NCBI RefSeq assembly: GCF_016862755.1
Contig: NZ_BONO01000003.1
Span: forward strand, 62,001-126,000
Source of the DNA: Cellulomonas pakistanensis
GTDB lineage: Bacteria > Actinomycetota > Actinomycetes > Actinomycetales > Cellulomonadaceae
Direction of reading: 5' to 3'
DNA length: 64,000 nt
Shown: in pieces, positions 49,842-58,139 of the stretch
Numbering within the stretch: the first letter of the stretch is position 1
Layout: each line of letters starts with the position of its first letter
Position numbers and translations under genes: made by a program
The notes under the pieces: model-generated
What the model was told of the DNA's origin: nothing
What the model saw: the letters and a program-made list of their open reading frames with translations, nothing else
The model's database searches: none

Positions 49842-51323
49842 ATGACCGACGACCCCACCGCGCGCCAGCCCGGCGAGCCCTCCGACGGCTCCGCCTGGGA
49901 GCAGATGCTGCGCCAGATGTTCGGCGAGGGCGCGGACGAGGCGCTCCGGCAGATGCGCGAGCAGGGCCTGGACCCCGCCGAGATGGCGCGCGCGTCCGGC
50001 CTGCCCGACGACCCGATGCTGATGAACCAGGTGATCGCCCAGGTGCAGCGGATGCTGTCGTCCGGCGGCGACGGCCCGGTGAACTGGGACGTCGCGCACG
50101 ACATGGCCCGCCAGGTCGCCGTCACCGGCGGGGACCCGAGCCTGTCCCCCGCCGAGCTGCGCCAGGCGACCGAGGCGCTCGGCGTCGCGGAGCTGTGGCT
50201 CGACGCCGCGACCGACCTGCCGCCCGCCGGCGGCTCGGTGCGCGCCCTGTCCCGCTCGGAGTGGGTCGAGCGCACGCTGCCGACCTGGCGCACCCTGACC
50301 GAGCCGGTGGCGACCTCGATGTCGACCGCGCTGGCCGCGACGCTCGCCGATCAGCTCCCCGAGAGCATGGAGCTCCCGCCCGGCCTCGGCGCCGGCGGCC
50401 TCGACCCCGCCGCGATGATGCGCCAGCTCGGCGCGCTCGTGTTCGGCATGCAGGTCGGCCAGGCGGCCGGCTCGCTGTCCCGCGAGGTGTTCGGCCTGAC
50501 CGACGCCGGCCTGCCGCTGGTCGCCGAGCCGGCGACCGCGCTCGTGCCGGGCAACGTCGCCGCGTTCGCCGACGGGCTCGACGTCCCGCTGGACGAGGTG
50601 CGGCTGTTCCTCGCGCTGCGCGAGGCCGCGCACGCCCGGCTGTTCACGCACGTCACCTGGCTGCGCGGGCACCTGCTGGCCGCCGTCGACGCCTACGCGC
50701 GGGGCATCACCATCGACGTGGAGAGCCTGGAGGAGTCGGTGCGCGCCATCGACCCCACCGACCCGGCCGCGCTGCAGGGCGCGCTGTCCTCCGGCGTGTT
50801 CGCGCCGCAGACGACCCCCGAGCAGCGGGCCGTGCTCGCCCGGCTGGAGACCGCGCTCGCGCTGGTCGAGGGCTGGGTGGACGAGGTCGTCGCCACCGCC
50901 GCGCTCCCCCACCTGCCGCACAGCGTCGCGCTGCGCGAGATGATCCGCCGCCGCCGCGCCGCCGGCGGGCCCGCCGAGCAGACGTTCGCCACGCTGGTCG
51001 GCCTGGAGCTGCGGCCCCGCCGGTCGCGGGACGCCGCCGCGCTGTGGGCGCGGATCGCCCGCGAGCAGGGCGCCGAGGCGCGCGACGCCGTCTGGGACCA
51101 CCCGGACCTGCTGCCGACGGCCGAGGACCTGGACGACCCCGCCGGGTACGCCGGGCGCCGCGCCGCGGCCGAGGGCGAGCACGCCGACCTGGACAAGGCG
51201 CTGGCGGAGATCCTGGGCGACGACGCGGCCGGCGGTGCCGGCGGCGCGTCGCCCGCGGGCGACGGGACCGAGGGCGACGGGACCGAGGGCGACGGCCCGA
51301 CGGGCGGCGAGCCGACCCGCTGA
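49842..51323 (+). CDS. zinc-dependent metalloprotease, DUF2342 (zincin-like) family
   Basis: A 493-residue soluble protein. The helix LFLALREAAHARLFTHVTWLRGHL contains E261-A-A-H264, the family's variant of the zincin HExxH, with Arg at the first position as in many actinobacterial members. Other family features are a Met-rich N-terminal region (WEQMLRQMFGEG) and MMRQLGALVFGMQVGQAAGSLSREVFG. The last 35 residues are a Gly/Glu/Thr-rich repeat (DGTEGDGTEGDG). Orthologue: the Rv3195 type. Divergent from the PDZ protease, with 126 bases between the starts. Confidence 0.85.
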   Translation: MTDDPTARQPGEPSDGSAWEQMLRQMFGEGADEALRQMREQGLDPAEMARASGLPDDPMLMNQVIAQVQRMLSSGGDGPVNWDVAHDMARQVAVTGGDPSLSPAELRQATEALGVAELWLDAATDLPPAGGSVRALSRSEWVERTLPTWRTLTEPVATSMSTALAATLADQLPESMELPPGLGAGGLDPAAMMRQLGALVFGMQVGQAAGSLSREVFGLTDAGLPLVAEPATALVPGNVAAFADGLDVPLDEVRLFLALREAAHARLFTHVTWLRGHLLAAVDAYARGITIDVESLEESVRAIDPTDPAALQGALSSGVFAPQTTPEQRAVLARLETALALVEGWVDEVVATAALPHLPHSVALREMIRRRRAAGGPAEQTFATLVGLELRPRRSRDAAALWARIAREQGAEARDAVWDHPDLLPTAEDLDDPAGYAGRRAAAEGEHADLDKALAEILGDDAAGGAGGASPAGDGTEGDGTEGDGPTGGEPTR

Positions 51324-51327
51324 GTGG

Positions 51328-52080
51328 TCAGTCCGCCTCGGGCGCGGCGACGTCCTCGACGGCGTCGTCGTCCGGGGCGGCGTCCTCGCCCCCGGGCGCG
51401 CGCTCGGCGAACGAGTAGCCCTCGAGGAACCCGCGCGCCCGCTCGGTGCGCGGGTACGCCTCGAGCTCGGCCCAGAACTCCGGTCCGTGGCCGGCGTGGA
51501 GCAGGTGGGCAAGCTCGTGCAGCAGCACGTAGTCGGTCACCCAGGACGGCATGCCGCGCAGCCGGTCGGACAGCCGGATGCTGCCGTCGGCGATCGTGCA
51601 CGAGCCCCAGCGCCGGCCCTGGTTGCCGGACCACCGCACGCTCGACGGCACGGCGCGGCCGCCCAGGTACCGCTGGTTGAGCTCCGCGGCGCGGCGGACG
51701 AGCTGGTCGTCGGACGGCCGGCGGCGCTGCTCCTGGGTGGCGAGCCGGTCGAGCATCCGGCGCACCCACTCGCGCTCCTGCGCCCGCGTGAACCGCGCGG
51801 GGATCGCGACGATCGTCCGGCCGCCCTCGCGGTACGCGGTCACCGTGCGGGACCGGCGCCGGGAACGGCGGACCTCGACGGGGCCGAGGCGCGGGTCGCC
51901 GTCGGCGGCGCCCGGGGCGGCGGTGGGGTCCGGGGCGGCGGCGGGGACGCTCGCCGGACGGGACGACGTGGCCGCGGGTCGGGGCGCGGCCGCGGCCGGG
52001 CGGGGCACCGGGCCGGGCGCGGGCGCGGCCGAGCGCACCGGGTCGACCGGTCTCCGGGGGTGCTCCCGCGACGGCTGCAC
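51328..52080 (-). CDS. YgjP-like (M48/WLM type) metallopeptidase domain protein
   Basis: A 250-residue protein. A disordered Pro/Ala-rich N-terminus (1-65) is followed by a compact metallopeptidase domain containing VTDYVLLHELAHLLHAGHGPEFW, i.e. HELAH plus a third ligand His, and the family motif WGSCTIADGSIRLSDRLRGMP. The GTG at 52080 follows a -10-like TACGGT (52088-52093) by 7 bases, suggesting a leaderless mRNA. The acidic tail resembles that of its neighbour. The substrate is unknown. It ends 4 bases from the convergent DUF2342 gene. Confidence 0.85.
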   Translation of the reverse strand: MQPSREHPRRPVDPVRSAAPAPGPVPRPAAAAPRPAATSSRPASVPAAAPDPTAAPGAADGDPRLGPVEVRRSRRRSRTVTAYREGGRTIVAIPARFTRAQEREWVRRMLDRLATQEQRRRPSDDQLVRRAAELNQRYLGGRAVPSSVRWSGNQGRRWGSCTIADGSIRLSDRLRGMPSWVTDYVLLHELAHLLHAGHGPEFWAELEAYPRTERARGFLEGYSFAERAPGGEDAAPDDDAVEDVAAPEAD

Positions 52081-52227
52081 GTCCAGCACCGTAGCGGTTC
52101 GGCCCCGTGATCTGGGGCAACCGGCGCGCGACGGGCGGAGGGAACTCTCCCGCGCGCGCCGCTCGGCAGACATACTGGCCCGGGCGCCGAGGAGCGGCGT
52201 CCGTGGACCGACACCGAGGAGACAGAC

Positions 52228-52386
52228 ATGGCCGAGACCTACGCCGGCGAGTTCTACTGCGTGAAGTGCAAGGAGAAGCGCCAGGCCGAGGGTGAGGTCG
52301 TCGTCTCCGAGTCGGGGCGCCGGATGGCCAAGGCCGTCTGCCCGGTGTGCAGCACCAAGCTGAACCGGATCCTCGGCAAGGCCTGA
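52228..52386 (+). CDS. DUF5679 small zinc-ribbon protein
   Basis: A 52-residue protein with two CxxC pairs, C11/C14 (YCVKC) and C38/C41 (CPVC), and a short basic C-terminus ending ILGKA. This is the DUF5679 pattern, seen in many Actinobacteria. It probably binds one zinc ion; the role is unknown, though the layout resembles ribosome- or nucleic-acid-associated ribbons. The ATG follows GAGGAGA at a good spacing. Confidence 0.85.
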   Translation: MAETYAGEFYCVKCKEKRQAEGEVVVSESGRRMAKAVCPVCSTKLNRILGKA

Positions 52387-52470
52387 GCGAACCCGCCCTG
52401 TGGACGACGGCGTCCACCCCCGTCCGGGGTGCCACGGTGGTGGCACTCGACGGGACGGGGGTGGGGCGCC

Positions 52471-53487
52471 GTGCAGCTCCGGCAGGGACTCCGCGTGCTG
52501 CGCCGCGCGCGGGACGAGGTCCAGGTGGGCGTCGACCCCCGCTGGGCGGTGCGGGTCGGCGGCCTGACCCCCGAGCGGGCCGAACGCCTGCTCCGCGCCG
52601 GCGACCGCCCCGTGGACGACGCGCTGCCCGCGTCGGCGCTCGCCGCCCTGCGCGCCGCCGGGCTGCTCCGCCCGCGCGGCGCCCGTGCCCGCCGGGTCCG
52701 CCCGGACCTGGTGCCCGAGGCCCTCGCCCACGGCCTGACCCGCGCGGACGGCGACGGCGTCGACTCCGTGCGGCGGCGGTCGCGCGCCACCGTGGCTGTG
52801 GTCGGGCTCGACCGCGCCGGGACCACCGCGGCGAGCACCCTCGCGCTGGCCGGCGTCGGGGGCCTGCTGCTCGACGACCCGCGCCCGCTCGGCCCTGCGG
52901 ACGTGGCGGGACCCGTGGCCGCGCGCCGGACCGTCGACGGCGCGACGGACCGCGCCACCGCGGTCGTCGACGGGTTGCGCCGGCTCGCCCCCCGCACCCG
53001 CGTCCACGTGCGCCGCGGCCTCGGCGCCGTGCTCGCCGAGCGGCCGGACGCGGTGGTGACGGCGTCGGCCGGGGCGACCGACCCCGCGTCCGCGCTCGCG
53101 CTGCTGGGCGCGGACCTGCCCCACCTGCCGGTCGTCACACGCGAGGCGGATGCCCTGGTCGGGCCGTTCGTGCGCGCGGCGGCGGACGACCGCGCCCTGC
53201 CCTGCCTGCGATGCCTCGACCTGCACCGCGCCGACGCCGACCCGGCGTGGCCGGTGGTGCTGGCGCAGCTCGTGGCCCCCGGCGCCGACGGGCACGCCCC
53301 GGGCGTGCCGGCCGCGCTCGCCGCCGTCGCGGGCGGGCTGGCCGCCGCCGAGGTGCTCGCGCACCTGGACGGCGGGTCGCCCCGGACGGCCGGGGCGCAG
53401 TACGAGGTCCCGGTGCCGTCGGCGGAGCCGCGGCTGCGCCGGTGGGCGGCGCACCCGGCGTGCGGGTGCGCCGCCCTGGACGGCTGA
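52471..53487 (+). CDS. ThiF/E1-like fold protein with Cys zinc site
   Basis: A 338-residue protein. An N-terminal winged-helix-like part (1-95) resembles the precursor-binding region of cyclodehydratase partner proteins. It is followed by a Rossmann-like E1 fold starting ATVAVVGLDRAGTTAASTLALAGVGGLLLDD. Four cysteines at C245/C248 (CLRC) and C331/C333 (CGC) could bind zinc. The glycine-rich ATP loop is degenerate and the usual E1 catalytic Arg/Asp residues are not obvious, so adenylation activity is doubtful. It sits beside whiB7, as its counterpart does in mycobacteria. No peptide substrate gene was found nearby. Confidence 0.7.
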   Translation: MQLRQGLRVLRRARDEVQVGVDPRWAVRVGGLTPERAERLLRAGDRPVDDALPASALAALRAAGLLRPRGARARRVRPDLVPEALAHGLTRADGDGVDSVRRRSRATVAVVGLDRAGTTAASTLALAGVGGLLLDDPRPLGPADVAGPVAARRTVDGATDRATAVVDGLRRLAPRTRVHVRRGLGAVLAERPDAVVTASAGATDPASALALLGADLPHLPVVTREADALVGPFVRAAADDRALPCLRCLDLHRADADPAWPVVLAQLVAPGADGHAPGVPAALAAVAGGLAAAEVLAHLDGGSPRTAGAQYEVPVPSAEPRLRRWAAHPACGCAALDG

Positions 53488-53516
53488 CCGCCCGGCCGTC
53501 GTGGCCGGCCGGGCGG
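53488..53516 (+). terminator. terminator hairpin of the ThiF-like gene
   Basis: CCGCCCGGCC (53488-53497) pairs with GGCCGGGCGG (53507-53516) immediately after the stop codon. Confidence 0.7.
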
Positions 53517-53520
53517 GGCG

Positions 53521-53554
53521 GACGAGCGGGCGGGGCGGACGAGCGGGCGGGGCC
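53521..53554. repeat. two tandem 17-bp repeats
   Basis: GACGAGCGGGCGGGGCG and a near-identical second unit run head to tail between the ThiF-like gene and whiB7. A further imperfect copy of the CCGACCGTCGTGGCCGGCCGGG segment follows at 53559-53581. No gene is seen in 53488-53648. Confidence 0.7.
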
Positions 53555-53604
53555 GCCGCCCGACCGTCGTGGCCGGCCGGGCGAGCGGACGGCGAGCCGC
53601 GCGG

Positions 53605-53635
53605 CCCCGCCCCCGGGTGCGGACCGGGGGCGGGG
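53605..53635 (-). terminator. terminator of whiB7
   Basis: CCCCGCCCCCGG (53605-53616) pairs exactly with CCGGGGGCGGGG (53624-53635), 13 bases beyond the whiB7 stop. Confidence 0.75.
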
Positions 53636-53648
53636 TGGCGGGCGGCGG

Positions 53649-53996
53649 TCAGGCCGCCGGGCTCGCGTCCTTGCGCGGCCGGCCGCGGCCGCGCTTGACG
53701 GCGACGACCTGGCCGGCGACGAACACCTCGCCGCCCCACACGCCCCAGGGCTCCTGCCGCTCGAGCGCGCCGGCGAGGCAGCCCTCGAGGAGCGGGCAGG
53801 TGCGGCAGAGCGCCTTGGCCTGCTCGACCTCGGCGGTCCGCTCGGCGAACCAGAGCTCGGGGTCGTTGGACCGGCACGGGATGAGCCCCGCGACGAGGGC
53901 GTCGAACTGCACATCGGTGACGGCGGGCGTCGAGGCGGGCGGCCAGGGACCGGAACCGCCCTGGTTGACCGTGTCGAGCAGCGTCGTGAGCCGCAC
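53649..53996 (-). CDS. whiB7: WhiB7 redox/antibiotic-response transcription factor
   Basis: A 115-residue WhiB protein. The iron-sulfur cysteines are C41, C64, C67 and C73 (C-x22-C-x2-C-x5-C). The turn GVWGG is at 85-89 and an AT-hook RGRPRKD is at 104-110; the hook plus QEPWGVWGGE distinguishes WhiB7 from other WhiB types. WhiB7 binds the primary sigma factor and AT-rich DNA just upstream of -35 boxes, activating ribosome-antibiotic resistance genes and itself. The GTG start follows AGGAGGA. It is preceded by a roughly 400-base leader with its own upstream ORF and attenuator. The locus order (ThiF-like, whiB7, uvrD2) matches mycobacteria. Confidence 0.95.
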   Translation of the reverse strand: MRLTTLLDTVNQGGSGPWPPASTPAVTDVQFDALVAGLIPCRSNDPELWFAERTAEVEQAKALCRTCPLLEGCLAGALERQEPWGVWGGEVFVAGQVVAVKRGRGRPRKDASPAA

Positions 53997-54083
53997 GATG
54001 TCCTCCTGATGACTTGCGGGTTGAGCGAGGTGGCGGTGGATCCGCGGGTGCCTCGCTCCTCCGCGCAGTGCGGGGGAAGACGA

Positions 54084-54115
54084 AGGCCGCGGGATCCGGG
54101 TGGACTCCGCGGCCT
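54084..54115 (-). terminator. attenuator hairpin in the whiB7 leader
   Basis: Reading on the minus strand AGGCCGCGG pairs with CCGCGGCCT (54107-54115 with 54084-54092) around a 14-base loop, followed by TCGTCTTCCCCC. It begins 18 bases after the uORF stop and 88 bases before the whiB7 start. CGGAGTC on its 5' side (54103-54109) can instead pair with GACTCCG inside the uORF (54157-54163), a possible antiterminator. Confidence 0.75.
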
Positions 54116-54133
54116 GAGGGGCTGGTCATCGAC

Positions 54134-54328
54134 TCAGATGACCGGTCCTCCTGGGACGGAGTCGGGGGCGGACGAGAGATCGCGCGCACGCAGCCGGAGA
54201 CCGGTGCCGCCGAGGCCACGGATGCCCGTGGGGGCGGCGGGGGACACAGCGGTCCCCTGGAAGGTGCCGGAGGTGGGTGCCAGGAACGGCAGCGCGATCG
54301 CGCCGAGCTCGTTGTTCATCTTCTTCAC
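54134..54328 (-). CDS. upstream ORF in the whiB7 leader (leader peptide)
   Basis: A 64-codon frame starting GTG after a near-consensus AAGGAGG and encoding VKKMNNELGAIALPFLAPTS... with an Arg-rich LRLRARDLSS stretch and the end VPGGPVI. Such a strong ribosome site is rare in this window. It begins about 66 bases after the predicted transcription start and stops just before the attenuator. whiB7 genes of mycobacteria and Streptomyces are known to be induced through a leader uORF whose translation controls attenuation; this frame sits where that uORF is expected. The peptide itself resembles nothing I recognise. ATG 54319 is an alternative start. Confidence 0.75.
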   Translation of the reverse strand: MKKMNNELGAIALPFLAPTSGTFQGTAVSPAAPTGIRGLGGTGLRLRARDLSSAPDSVPGGPVI

Positions 54329-54400
54329 AGCACCACACCTCCTTCTCGTCATCGGGCCGCCGCCGCTTCGCGCAGCACGGCCTTCCAGCAGGACTCGTTC

Positions 54401-54440
54401 ACCGTAGAGGGGCCCTCGCGGGCGGCACAACCGATTTACC
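54401..54440 (-). promoter_or_regulatory. whiB7 promoter with WhiB7-type AT element
   Basis: On the minus strand TTGTGC (54425-54430) and TACGGT (54401-54406) are separated by 18 bases. TAAAT (54434-54438) lies exactly 3 bases upstream of the -35, the known position of the AT-rich WhiB7 site, and another AT-rich block with seven A residues lies further up (about 54443-54464). Autoactivation by WhiB7 is the natural reading. Confidence 0.8.
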
Positions 54441-54484
54441 GAGGAATCTTCCGGACTTTTTTTCCGGGTCACCCGGACGGCGGG

Positions 54485-56524
54485 TCAGCGCACCGCCGCG
54501 GCGTCCCCGGCGGCGGGCCGCCGACCGGCCACGATGGCCAGCAGGTCGGGCCCGTACCGGTCGATCTTCGCCGGGCCGATGCCCTGCACCCGCGCCAGCT
54601 CCGGGACGCTCGCCGGGCGCAGCTCCGCGATGGCGGCGAGCGTGGCGTCGCCCAGCACCGTGTACGCCGGCTTGGACGTCGAGCGGGCGAGGTCGGCGCG
54701 CCAGACGTGCAGCGCGGCGAGCAGCTCGGCGTCGACCTCCCCGGTGAGCCGCGGCACGGCGCGCGGGCGGCCGTCGCCGAACCGCGCGCGCCCCTCCTGC
54801 GGCCACAGGCCGTCGAGGAACCGCGAGCGGCGGCGGGTCGCGCGGCCCCCGGGGTTGCGGGCCCGGCCGTAGGACAGCTCCAGGTGCACCCGCGCGCGGG
54901 TGATGCCGACGTAGAGCAGCCGGCGCTCCTCCGCGAGGTCCGCGGCGGTGTCGGCGGACGCCCACGGCACCAGGCCCTCGCTGAGCCCGGCGAGGAACAC
55001 CGCGTCCCACTCCAGGCCCTTGGCGGCGTGCAGCGACGCGAGCGTCACGCCCTCGACGGTCGGGGCGTGCTGCGCGGCGGCGCGCTCGTCCAGGTCGGCG
55101 ATGAGGTCCTGCACCGTGGCCCGTCCGCCCGCGCGCTCGGCCGCGGCGGCGAGGTCGTCGGCGAGCGTCACCAGCGCGTGGAGGGTGTCCCAGCGCTCGC
55201 GCGAGGCGCCGCGCGCCGCGGGCGGCTCGTCCGACCAGCCCGCCGACCGCAGCGCGTCCCGGACCGTCTCGGTCATGGGCACGTCGGCGTCGGCGGCGAC
55301 CGCGGCGCCCCGCAGCCGGACGATCGCGTCGCGGACCTCCTTGCGCTGGAAGAACCGCTCGCCGCCGCGGAGCACGTACCCGATGCCCTGGTGCGCCAGC
55401 GCCTGCTCGAACGCCTCGGACTGCGCGTTGGTCCGGTACAGGACGGCGATCTCGCTCGGGCGGGTGCCCGCGGCGATCAGCCGGCCGATCCGGGTGGCGA
55501 CGCCGGCGGCCTCCGCCTCGTCGTCGTCGTAGACCGCGAACCGCACCGGCCCGCCGGACGGGCGCTGCGCGATGAGCTCGAGCGGCTCCCAGCGCGCGCC
55601 GCGGTCCTTCGGCGCGCGGCGCAGCACCTCGTTGGCCAGGCCGACGACCTGCGGGGTCGACCGGTAGTCGCGGACCAGCCGGACGACCTGCGCCTCGGGG
55701 TGCTCGGCCGTGAACCGGGTCAGGTAGTGGGGCGTCGCCCCGGCGAACGAGTAGATGGTCTGGCTGGGGTCGCCCACCACGCACAGCTCGTCCCGGCCGC
55801 CGAGCCACTGGTCGAGCAGGAACTTCTGCAGCGGGGAGATGTCCTGGTACTCGTCGACGACGAACCGCCGGTACTGGTGGCGGATCTCGTCCGCGACCGC
55901 GCGGTTCTCCACGAGCATCCCCGACAGCAGCCAGAGGATGTCCTCCATGTCCATGACGCCGCGCGCGTCCTTGGCGTCCTCGTACGCCGTGATGAGCCGG
56001 GCCACGACGTGGTGGTCGTGCCCGGCGGGCGCCGGCCGGTCGGCCGCCGCCGCGGCGCGCACGTAGTCCTCGGCGGTGATGCGCGAGACCTTCGCCCACT
56101 CGATCTCGGACGCGAGGTCGCGGACGGACACCCGGTCGACCGACAGCCCGAGCCGGTGGCACGCGTCCGCCACGACCGGCGCCTTCTGCGCGAGCACCTG
56201 GGGCGAGGGGCCGCCGACGACCTTCGGCCAGAAGTACCGCAGCTGGCGCAGCGCGGCCGAGTGGAACGTGCGCGCCTGCACGCCCGCGACGCCGAGGTCG
56301 CGCAGGCGGGTGCGCATCTCCCCCGCGGCCCGCGCGGTGAACGTCACGGCGAGCACGCTGGTCGGCGCGTACACGCCGGTGCGCACGCCGTACGCGATCC
56401 GGTGCGTGATCGCGCGCGTCTTCCCCGTGCCCGCGCCCGCCAGGACGCACACCGGCCCGGTGAGGGCGCGCGCGACCTCCCGCTGGTCCGGGTCGAGGGC
56501 GTCGAGGAGGTCGTCGGCAGGCAT
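54485..56524 (-). CDS. uvrD2: UvrD2-type superfamily 1 DNA helicase
   Basis: A 679-residue helicase. Motif I is LAGAGTGKTRA, Ia VTFTARAAGEMRTRL, II VVDEYQD, III GDPSQTIYSFAGA, IV LVRDYRSTP, V TLASLHAAKGLEWDAVFLAGL and VI LLYVGITRARVHLELSYGR. A C-terminal HRDC domain (about 595-675, ELLAALHVWRADLARSTSKPAYTVLGDATLAAIA) marks it as UvrD2 rather than UvrD1. It unwinds DNA 3' to 5' in repair. It is divergent from mrx1, as in other Actinobacteria. The ATG at 56524 gives MPADDLLDALDPDQ, the usual start. Confidence 0.93.
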   Translation of the reverse strand: MPADDLLDALDPDQREVARALTGPVCVLAGAGTGKTRAITHRIAYGVRTGVYAPTSVLAVTFTARAAGEMRTRLRDLGVAGVQARTFHSAALRQLRYFWPKVVGGPSPQVLAQKAPVVADACHRLGLSVDRVSVRDLASEIEWAKVSRITAEDYVRAAAAADRPAPAGHDHHVVARLITAYEDAKDARGVMDMEDILWLLSGMLVENRAVADEIRHQYRRFVVDEYQDISPLQKFLLDQWLGGRDELCVVGDPSQTIYSFAGATPHYLTRFTAEHPEAQVVRLVRDYRSTPQVVGLANEVLRRAPKDRGARWEPLELIAQRPSGGPVRFAVYDDDEAEAAGVATRIGRLIAAGTRPSEIAVLYRTNAQSEAFEQALAHQGIGYVLRGGERFFQRKEVRDAIVRLRGAAVAADADVPMTETVRDALRSAGWSDEPPAARGASRERWDTLHALVTLADDLAAAAERAGGRATVQDLIADLDERAAAQHAPTVEGVTLASLHAAKGLEWDAVFLAGLSEGLVPWASADTAADLAEERRLLYVGITRARVHLELSYGRARNPGGRATRRRSRFLDGLWPQEGRARFGDGRPRAVPRLTGEVDAELLAALHVWRADLARSTSKPAYTVLGDATLAAIAELRPASVPELARVQGIGPAKIDRYGPDLLAIVAGRRPAAGDAAAVR

Positions 56525-56670
56525 CGCGGAGATCCTCGCACCTCCCGCCGACACGCCGGGACGGTCGTCCCCAGGCCGCCGGGGCGTGATCGGCTGACGC
56601 GTCCGGGATGATCCTGCGGGCGCCGGGCGTTCTGCTCGGTGACGCGACACCGACCATGCGAAGGCAGACG

Positions 56671-56937
56671 ATGACGACCACGCAGGACCTGCCCGCCGAG
56701 GGCACCGTGACGATGTACTCGACGACCTGGTGCGGCTACTGCCGCCGGCTCAAGACGCAGCTCGACTCCGCGGGCATCGCGTACACCGAGGTCGACATCG
56801 AGCAGACGCCGGACGCCGCGTCGTTCGTCGAGCAGGTGAACGGCGGCAACCAGACCGTCCCGACGGTGCTGTTCCCGGACGGCTCCGCCGCCACGAACCC
56901 GTCGCTGGTGCAGGTCCGCGAGCGCCTCGGCGCCTGA
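56671..56937 (+). CDS. mrx1: mycoredoxin (glutaredoxin-like)
   Basis: An 88-residue thioredoxin-fold protein with the active site C21-G-Y-C24 after MYSTTW, cis-Pro in TVPTVLF and the C-terminal GSAATNPSLVQVRERL. It reduces mycothiol mixed disulfides using mycothiol. The position between uvrD2 and nudC is conserved in Actinobacteria. The ATG at 56671 was chosen over two upstream in-frame ATGs because it gives the family N-terminus. Confidence 0.92.
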   Translation: MTTTQDLPAEGTVTMYSTTWCGYCRRLKTQLDSAGIAYTEVDIEQTPDAASFVEQVNGGNQTVPTVLFPDGSAATNPSLVQVRERLGA

Positions 56938-56945
56938 AGCGCGGC

Positions 56946-58139
56946 TCAGCGCGTGCCGAGCGGACCCTCGTCCGCGGGGGCCGGGGCGGCGCGCCGGCCC
57001 TGCCGGCGGGTGGCGGGCGCCGGCGGCTGCGCGGCCGGGGCGGCGTCCTCGGCCGGGGCCGGCCGCTCCGCGGGGGCGGGCCGCCCGTCGGCGGCACCCG
57101 TCTGGCCGTCCGTCGCCGCCGCCTGCTCGGCCGGGGGCACCGCGCCGCGGCTCCAGCCGTCGCGCAGCGGGTCGGACGGCAGCGGCCCGCCGAACCAGTC
57201 CTCGATCAGCGCGCGGGCGATGGACGTCCCCGGCGGGAGCACCACGGTCCCGTCCTCGACCTCCGCGCGCAGCGTGTCGCGGTCGAACCAGCGCGCGGCG
57301 CGCAGCTCGTCGCCGTCGACGGTGATCTCCGTGGACAGCGCCCGGGCGCGGAAGCCCAGCATGAGCGACGCGGGGAACGGCCACGGCTGGCTGCCCCGGT
57401 ACTCGACCTCGCCGACGACGACCGCCGTCTCCTCGCGCGCCTCCCGGCGGATCGCGTGCTCGACCGACTCCCCCGGCTCCACGAAGCCCGCGAGCGTCGA
57501 GAACCGGTGCGTGGGCCACGCCGCCGAGTTGGCGAGCAGCAGCCGGTCCCGGTCGTCGACGACCGCCATGATCACGGCGGGGTCGGTGCGCGGGTAGTGG
57601 TCCGAGCCGTCGACCGGGCACCGGCGCACCCAGCCGCTCGACACCGGCTGCGTCTCCGCGCCGCACCGCGGGCACCGCGGGTTCCGGACGTGCCACTCGT
57701 AGAGCGCGACCGCCGCGGTCGCCAGGCCGGCGTCCCGCGCGGACAGCTCGGCGCCGACCTCGCGCAGCGCCGTCCACTCGTCGCCCGCGGCCAGCGCCGC
57801 CGCGGCACCCTCGGGCACGTGGTGCGCGAGGTACGCGGGGCCGTGCGGGCGCTCCTCGCCGGGGGCGACGCCCGGGACGCGGTCGGCGTCGTCGTAGCCG
57901 AGGAACGCCCAGCGCTCCGCCAGCGACGAGCTCGGCGCGCGGAGCGCCGCCTCCTGCGGCGAGTAGAGCGCGAGCGCCGGCCGGCGGCCGCGGCGGCGGG
58001 TCACGACCCGTCCGCCGGACACCAGCAGCACGCGGGTGGAGTCGTCGTCGAGCAGCGCGGGCAGCAGGTCCTCGTCACCGCGGAGGTCCGCGGCCCGGTC
58101 CGTGACCGTCCGCGACAGAGGGAGGTCGGAGGCGAACAC
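56946..58139 (-). CDS. nudC: NudC-type NAD+ diphosphatase (Nudix hydrolase)
   Basis: A 397-residue enzyme. An N-terminal domain (1-145) is followed by a zinc ribbon (NPRCPRCGAETQPV...RRCPV) and the Nudix box GFVEPGESVEHAIRREAREETAV, then the NudC-specific SQPWPFPASLMLGF. It hydrolyses NADH and related dinucleotides. A Pro/Ala-rich tail of about 80 residues is unusual. The GTG at 58139 is preceded by a -10-like TACCGT six bases earlier (58146-58151), so the mRNA is probably leaderless. It ends 8 bases from the convergent mrx1 gene. Confidence 0.92.
   Translation of the reverse strand: MFASDLPLSRTVTDRAADLRGDEDLLPALLDDDSTRVLLVSGGRVVTRRRGRRPALALYSPQEAALRAPSSSLAERWAFLGYDDADRVPGVAPGEERPHGPAYLAHHVPEGAAAALAAGDEWTALREVGAELSARDAGLATAAVALYEWHVRNPRCPRCGAETQPVSSGWVRRCPVDGSDHYPRTDPAVIMAVVDDRDRLLLANSAAWPTHRFSTLAGFVEPGESVEHAIRREAREETAVVVGEVEYRGSQPWPFPASLMLGFRARALSTEITVDGDELRAARWFDRDTLRAEVEDGTVVLPPGTSIARALIEDWFGGPLPSDPLRDGWSRGAVPPAEQAAATDGQTGAADGRPAPAERPAPAEDAAPAAQPPAPATRRQGRRAAPAPADEGPLGTR

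Follow-up and report, generated by a model that had tools for sequence, protein, structure and literature searches.

A probable ribosome-controlled attenuator of whiB7 in Cellulomonas pakistanensis, with a conserved pause-like element within its upstream open reading frame

In actinobacteria WhiB7 acts as a master switch for intrinsic resistance to antibiotics, and the question raised by the locus described here is how the leader in front of the gene controls its transcription. The published work on whiB7/wblC, in the portions accessible to us, describes an attenuation in which translation of an upstream open reading frame (uORF) favours a terminator and antibiotic stress an antiterminator (PMC11550727; also PMC4128351 and PMC13236596), so the initial annotation of the locus was right in calling the mechanism known in mycobacteria and Streptomyces. 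The promoter, uORF, terminator and complementary arms that it reported were confirmed. Three items were overlooked in that first description: a pause-like element inside the uORF, a segment complementary to the uORF Shine-Dalgarno (SD) sequence, and the position of the pairing arm 2-12 nt before the uORF end in most leaders. In the window, i.e. the whole stretch of 64,000 nucleotides that was analysed, the minus strand carries in order a uvrD-like helicase gene (54485-56650), the promoter, the uORF, the terminator and whiB7, with the following parts:

54434-54438, minus strand: AT element TAAAT, 3 bp upstream of the -35 with CGG between (direct sequence reading)
54425-54430, minus strand: -35 hexamer TTGTGC (direct sequence reading)
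54401-54406, minus strand: -10 hexamer TACGGT, 18-nt spacer to the -35 (direct sequence reading)
54338-54344, minus strand: uORF SD AAGGAGG, 9 nt from the GTG (direct sequence reading)
54134-54328, minus strand: uORF of 64 codons, GTG start at 54328, TGA at 54136-54134 (direct reading and genus parsing)
54157-54163, minus strand: predicted antiterminator 5' arm GACTCCG, inside the uORF (sequence, pairing, folding)
54124-54143, minus strand: GGTCATC/GATGACC hairpin of 7 bp whose loop holds the uORF stop codon (folding energy -11 kcal/mol, z -3.26)
54084-54115, minus strand: terminator hairpin, 9-bp GC stem of AGGCCGCGG (54115-54107) and CCGCGGCCT (54092-54084) (-25.5 kcal/mol, z -4.17)
54103-54109, minus strand: CGGAGTC, predicted 3' arm of the antiterminator, which overlaps the 5' arm of the terminator (sequence, pairing)
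54002-54007, minus strand: whiB7 SD AGGAGG (direct sequence reading)
53649-53996, minus strand: whiB7, 115 amino acids (Cys 41/64/67/73, GVWGG, RGRPRK AT-hook)

The downstream gene is WhiB7 by its four cysteines, GVWGG motif and RGRP AT-hook. The product matches the Pfam family Whib (E 3.4e-16) and the WhiB7 structure 7kif of the PDB (E 7.4e-28), with the RGRPRKDA tail within the alignment, and Cys 41, 64, 67 and 73 are invariant in an alignment of 15 sequences. The closest named WhiB7, among the best 80 of at least 592 confirmed loci, is that of Cellulomonas sp. ACRRI (98%). A search of Rfam with positions 50000-58000 gave no match at E up to 1.

A WhiB7 match was present in 77 of the 81 Cellulomonas genomes, that of the window included, and one whiB7 locus per matching genome was taken as the genus sample (n = 77). 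The leader of locus L119 (genome G088) was not parsed, leaving 76, and the pause-like element still occurs beside its whiB7; L153 has no uORF, leaving 75 uORFs, of which two identical to another were collapsed to give 73 distinct ones. The class-wide sample comprised 88 loci (L163-L250); 60 loci were hand-picked for family spread from 246 matching genomes. In 80 of the 88 whiB7, promoter and uORF were parsed; L205 lacked whiB7, and promoter plus uORF were lacking in L163, which belongs to the same family as the window organism, L167, L192, L199, L200, L222 and L239. The uORF chosen by the script may be wrong in some distant loci. Family f17, of the same order, accounts for 13 of the 20 listed genomes with no match, a further 30 such genomes being unlisted, and for none of the listed matching genomes, which suggests a loss of whiB7; the WhiB7 matches L165 and L029 (genomes G140 and G034) each contain one TGA, possibly 5' of the true start.

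Promoters of whiB7/wblC attenuators carry an AT-rich element 3 bp upstream of the -35, and WhiB7 family proteins activate their own AT-element promoter. The same arrangement was read here on the minus strand, as had been claimed: an AT-rich element at exactly this distance from TTGTGC, together with the -10 TACGGT, so far as sequence can tell; the transcript is predicted to start near 54394. Simple consensus scans of 53900-54500 called neither a sigma-70 promoter nor a terminator. With a search pattern of TTG, TAnnnT, a spacer of 16-19 nt and at least 5 of 9 A/T, an AT-element promoter was found at 76 of 77 genus loci, the exception being L119. All 76 have a run of at least four A/T within 12 nt upstream of the -35, as is partly demanded by the pattern; the -35 hexamers were TTGTCC in 29, TTGTGA in 18 and TTGTGC in 15. 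The spacer is 18 nt in 74 of 76, a constancy not imposed by the search, which allowed 16-19 nt, and the distance from the -10 to the uORF start, likewise not imposed, is 69.6 +/- 2.8 nt (70 leaders).

The SD-led uORF of 64 codons that had been reported upstream of whiB7 was also read in its place, with AAGGAGG, GTG and TGA. An SD-led uORF occurs at 75 of 76 parsed genus loci, the SD being of the AGGAGG or GGAGG type in 63 of the 75 and only GAGGG in 12, and the uORF ends 122-147 nt before whiB7. A Pfam search with the uORF gave no match. The stop-codon hairpin is identical in sequence in L001-L004. In the last uORF codons, just 5' of this hairpin, there is an AGGAGG (54153-54148, minus strand), whose GAGG pairs with CCUC inside the predicted antiterminator and which may also slow ribosomes.

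The 9-bp GC hairpin described initially is present, but it does not lie just before whiB7: it ends 88 nt upstream of the start of the gene. It is a predicted intrinsic terminator after the uORF, though the U-tract is weak (TTCGTCTTCC) and the consensus scan made no call. The complementarity of GACTCCG (54163-54157) to CGGAGTC (54109-54103) on the 5' side of the hairpin holds as claimed. The 71-nt antiterminator stretch folds at -32.6 kcal/mol (z -2.29), and 7 of 200 shuffles were as good. When the RNA was ended at 54095, so that the terminator 3' arm is absent, the lowest-energy fold includes the GACTCCG/CGGAGTC helix; when it was extended to 54070, the terminator fold is favoured. For the stretch that a ribosome sitting on the stop codon leaves exposed, folding gives the terminator as the sole possible structure. 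Since the terminator is the more stable state on the full RNA, read-through must be kinetic. In the clade of the window 20 nt separate the end of the antiterminator arm from the stop, which puts it at, or slightly past, the edge expected for a terminating ribosome; masking by that ribosome would therefore be mainly of inner segments.

Conservation in close relatives, which had been proposed as a check, was found for all three parts: the promoter at 76 of 77 loci, the uORF at 75 of 76, and a terminator core downstream of the uORF in all 73 distinct leaders. Each of these 73 has, within the final 40 nt of its uORF, a segment able to pair with the terminator 5' arm, at -7.5 to -16.6 kcal/mol. The two arms change together, as CGACTCCG/CGGAGTC, GGCTTC/GAAGCC (L154, L155), GGATTC/GGAATCC (L005), GGATGTCCG/CGGACTCC (L025, L161, L162) and GGGACC/GGATCCC (L156). 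Covariation and folding together indicate an antiterminator exclusive with the terminator. When partners were swapped among 71 leaders, a test which ignores their relatedness and left out L025 and L161 (and L136, of uncertain start, in some pairing tests), native partners paired better on average, at -19.36 against -18.58 kcal/mol; none of 2000 permutations reached the native mean, the best being -19.31, and a control pair of regions showed no gain (native -15.79, swapped -15.85 kcal/mol). By leader, the native partner beats the mean swapped one in 51 of 71, and unrelated control regions score 40 of 71; the count per leader is therefore weak, and it is the difference of means that carries the test. 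In the other 20 leaders, L014, L124 and L155 among them, the own partner is no better than the swapped mean.

The position of the arm is not the same throughout the genus. In 58 of the 73 distinct leaders the gap between arm and uORF end is 2-12 nt; by eye, the arm stands about 20 nt before the stop in the clade of the window, in L120, L124 and L148, and in related Promicromonosporaceae, so that the register of the switch has moved within the genus. In nine of the 73 leaders the proposed arm pairs no better with the terminator arm than does a stretch further upstream in the uORF. Pairing is limited to split helices in L131 and L135 and to -7.5 kcal/mol in L158. An upstream GACTCCG and a downstream GGACTCC-like segment were seen together by eye in L014, L018, L145, L147, L148 and L149, which look as if they were caught between two switch registers.

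The complementarity might have been incidental in a merely translated 5' UTR with a constitutive terminator, control being left to promoter autoactivation alone. GC-rich sequence pairs readily, and for the duplex of uORF end and terminator arm the median shuffle fraction was 0.02, with values below 0.05 in 45 of 73 leaders and not in the remaining 28. The compensatory changes, the better mean pairing of native partners and the recurrent placing of the arm close to the uORF end argue otherwise, as does the attenuation published for mycobacteria and Streptomyces, in so far as those papers were accessible; incidental complementarity can hardly be credited. The claim that the position of the ribosome in the uORF chooses between termination and read-through thus gains support from conservation, covariation, native-over-swapped pairing and folding, and the leader is very probably a ribosome-controlled transcription attenuator of the whiB7/wblC kind. 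Its parts rest on sequence and covariation, its dynamics on inference.

The best-conserved stretch within the uORF lies about 80 nt after its start and is the nucleotide element GGN6T(G/C)YG-YCC. In the window it was defined, together with the arms of a second helix, as follows:

54242-54260, minus strand: pause-like element CCAGGGGACCGCTGTGTCC, with G-11 at 54256, G-10 at 54255, T-3 at 54248, G-2 at 54247, T-1 at 54246 and G+1 at 54245 (uORF alignment, pattern counts, weight matrix)
54329-54342, minus strand: 5' arm of helix A, uORF SD and spacer GGAGGUG.GGUGCU (pairing, partner swap)
54269-54281, minus strand: 3' arm of helix A, GGCACCCACCUCC, codons APT (partner swap, compensatory changes)

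In the aligned genus uORFs the translated core reads LAPT...FQGxA(V/L)P, yet it is conserved as nucleotides. The Gly codon of the element is GGG in 69 of 72 cases; elsewhere in the uORFs GGG makes up 39 of 287 Gly codons, the commonest being GGC. The codon two after this Gly ends in T in 70 of 73, compared with 12% T at third positions elsewhere, whichever of Ala, Gly, Thr, Ser, Arg and Pro it specifies; the codon following it has G as its last base in 72 of 73. In its strict form, GGN6TSYGYCC, the pattern occurs in 67 of 75 Cellulomonas uORFs (mean 1.8 and maximum 5 in 200 runs of shuffles), being absent from L025, L125, L142, L144, L145, L147, L152 and L161. In the class sample it occurs in 38 of 80 uORFs and is absent from 42 (shuffles: mean 2.6, maximum 8); among these 38, 16 belong to the 22 uORFs of Streptomyces type and 22 to the 58 others, and in the latter 22 it stands in frame 0 twelve times, in frame 1 three times and in frame 2 seven times.

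A weight matrix trained on Cellulomonas alone was applied at a 1% shuffle threshold, with five Cellulomonas loci kept out of the held-out set. The threshold was passed by 59 of the 66 uORFs of Streptomyces type and by 28 of the 85 others from outside Cellulomonas, sets which overlap with the class sample and in which species are non-independent; the 57 others that fail include the named Mycobacterium loci L066, L103 and L105 and the Rhodococcus locus L080. The best match among the 28 is in frame 0 eighteen times and in frames 1 and 2 five times each, and in L046 it is in frame 2 or 1 according to the start chosen. Translated, the element gives for instance QGTGLSG in Streptomyces, AGDTSALG in the Isoptericola halotolerans locus L052 and STGGVRPQ in L225. 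A string kept in three reading frames is not kept for its peptide.

Besides the positions of the consensus proper, an elemental pause of RNA polymerase is expected to show G-11, T-3 and G-2. The consensus proper, in the part of the source available, is G-10, Y-1 and G+1 (PMC12288461), and these three are present in the sequence of the element. Among the 73 aligned uORFs G-11 is found in 72, G-10 in 72, T-3 in 70, Y-1 in 73 and G+1 in 72, position -2 being G in only 44 and C in 28; conserved beyond the pause consensus in Cellulomonas are CCAG upstream and YCC downstream. The element is tied to the start of the uORF (80.1 +/- 4.4 nt) and not to its stop (112 +/- 31 nt; 70 Cellulomonas leaders), as expected if it timed the loading of ribosomes rather than termination. 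We infer that it may act as an elemental pause signal.

Several observations bear on this reading. In the class sample the G-2 form GGN6TGYG is not enriched (20 of 80, shuffle mean 17.9) and bare GGN6TSYG only mildly (48 of 80, shuffle mean 32.3), so that in this sample much of the signal comes from the downstream YCC. The T-rich motif of NusG-dependent pauses in the non-template strand, TTNTTT (-11 to -6), is not what the element has, which reads GGGNNN at these positions. The conserved CCAG and YCC outside the consensus count against a pause, as does the reported lack of a strong motif in M. tuberculosis pausing (PMC10937400, accessible in part). The pattern CCAGGGGN5TSYGYCC has one match in the 4.0-Mb genome of the window, the one here, and a reversed control pattern also has one; the number alone is therefore background, and it is the placement that matters. 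A genus genome has 0-3 matches (0-4 for the reversed control), with at least one in 65 of 81. The idea that translation starts internally at the element (AGGGG...GTG) was discarded, the codon being CTG in 24 of 73 aligned rows and the frame differing elsewhere. A literature search, mostly outside subscription papers, returned no such element for whiB7/wblC in the text accessible.

The uORF SD region of Cellulomonas (GGUGGG...) is complementary to the APT codons just upstream of the pause-like element. Native pairing of this helix A averaged -22.5 against -20.55 for swapped partners (best permutation -21.63), with the native better in 52 of 71 leaders, and compensatory changes were found in L120/L124, L121, L024 and L159; in L012, L015, L023 and L156 the relation is reversed, native pairing being worse than swapped. 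The shuffle control was moderate, with values below 0.05 in 35 of 70 Cellulomonas leaders and a mean fraction of 0.17. The best complement of the SD immediately precedes the element in 45 of 65 uORFs of Cellulomonas, 23 of 58 of Streptomyces type and 11 of 36 others, against expected shares of about 21, 11 and 17 percent, respectively; the Streptomyces-type uORFs have a further SD-complement peak about 32-40 nt after the element in 18. Helix A is thus probably an SD-sequestering helix at the level of the genus, as judged by pairing and compensatory changes, and the positions of SD complements outside the genus do not support it as a class-wide feature. RNAalifold of the 5' region also suggested pairing of GUCCU at the transcript 5' end with the SD; this candidate has no covariation evidence, as both arms hardly vary.

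Could the uORF core instead encode an arrest peptide (LAPT...FQGxAVP), the nascent chain being the sensor? The translated core does resemble a peptide motif in Cellulomonas and Streptomyces, and in several families besides these, AP(T/V)-like codons in frame 0 come before the element. A peptide would explain neither the choice of GGG for Gly where GGC is commonest elsewhere nor a codon two further on that ends in T whatever the amino acid, and in frames 1 and 2 of other families the same pattern holds unrelated residues. The peptide-motif reading was given up in view of these codon counts and reading frames, and an arrest peptide, to which one nucleotide pattern across three frames does not conform, appears very improbable. 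More serious, if still unlikely, is an RNA hairpin or protein-binding site with a GG(G):(Y)CC stem and a loop of about 9 nt. The CCAG and YCC kept in Cellulomonas lie outside the pause consensus, and GG can pair with CC in the clades examined, as such a site would have it. Its stem would have only about 3 bp in many species, however, and in Streptomyces the best pairing register would shift by one while the spacing of GG, T, Y and G stays constant; moreover T-3 and Y-1, in the loop, are as conserved as the stem (70 and 73 of 73). One conserved hairpin over the element was set aside, as it seems inconsistent between clades.

If the pause reading is adopted, RNA polymerase starting near 54394 would meet the element about 150 nt downstream, and meanwhile a ribosome would load on the uORF and begin translating; the leading ribosome might then follow the polymerase or push it on. 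In normal translation the ribosome at the stop codon near 54136 would cover the stop-codon hairpin and the inner antiterminator, and with those segments covered the terminator would fold and whiB7 stay off. An early stall of the ribosome, by a translation inhibitor or an uncharged tRNA, would leave GACTCCG free to pair with the newly made CGGAGTC before the terminator 3' arm exists, giving read-through into whiB7, whose product would then reinforce its own AT-element promoter. It is tempting to propose that the whiB7/wblC uORFs of many actinobacterial families, though not the named Mycobacterium loci examined, carry a built-in pause signal, selected as nucleic acid in three frames and placed in Cellulomonas at a fixed distance from the start; the polymerase would wait there for a pioneer ribosome, which would synchronise the antibiotic decision, and in Cellulomonas the SD-sequestering helix, formed once its 3' arm leaves the paused polymerase, would limit loading to the first ribosome. 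We consider this proposal evenly poised between right and wrong. That the attenuator, covariation included, is present in a genus other than the usual models confirms the breadth of the mechanism, and a three-frame nucleotide element in otherwise unrelated uORFs points to the timing of polymerase against the first ribosome.

In the trp and his leaders of E. coli, too, the position of the ribosome in a leader ORF selects terminator or antiterminator, and a pause synchronises polymerase and ribosome. The present proposal resembles this attenuation in both respects, the ribosome-position choice and the synchronising leader pause; unlike those leaders, the uORF here has by eye no prominent run of codons for a single amino acid, is a long one of 64 codons and differs in length among relatives. 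The closest demonstrated pause that gives time for leader-peptide translation, as far as the source could be consulted, is that of the B. subtilis yxjB (tlrB) leader, which likewise has an antibiotic-sensing leader peptide, a terminator and an SD-sequestering structure (PMC6851288). That pause is NusG-dependent, experimentally shown and located after the leader peptide, whereas the one here is putative, of elemental consensus and inside the uORF; in yxjB the SD of the resistance gene is sequestered, and here it would be the SD of the uORF (PMC6851288, in part). With the whiB7/wblC attenuators of Mycobacterium and Streptomyces, as described in the accessible portions of the papers, the locus shares the WhiB7 gene, an SD-led uORF, a stem-loop terminator after it, a mutually exclusive antiterminator and a leader of about 350 nt or more (about 350 nt in M. 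marinum and M. bovis; PMC4128351). By the same partial comparison it differs in the uORF sequence, in the placing of the antiterminator arm, some 20 nt ahead of the stop codon in the clade of the window, and in the complementarity of the uORF SD to codons just upstream of the element; the pause-like element itself is absent from the three Mycobacterium uORFs (L066, L103, L105). A step timing polymerase against the first ribosome does not appear in the accessible portions of the published whiB7/wblC model.

Two further features of the leader were observed. At alignment column 161, ahead of the antiterminator, Asp is encoded by GAT in 48 of 68 uORFs, compared with 30 of 79 Asp codons elsewhere in the uORFs, and this bias is possibly another constraint at the nucleotide level. 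Between the terminator and the whiB7 SD there is a second GC-rich hairpin, GAGCGAGG...CCTCGCTC (54060-54021, minus strand), in a stretch (54070-54010) that folds at -30 kcal/mol (z -4.95); this hairpin could affect the translation or decay of whiB7.
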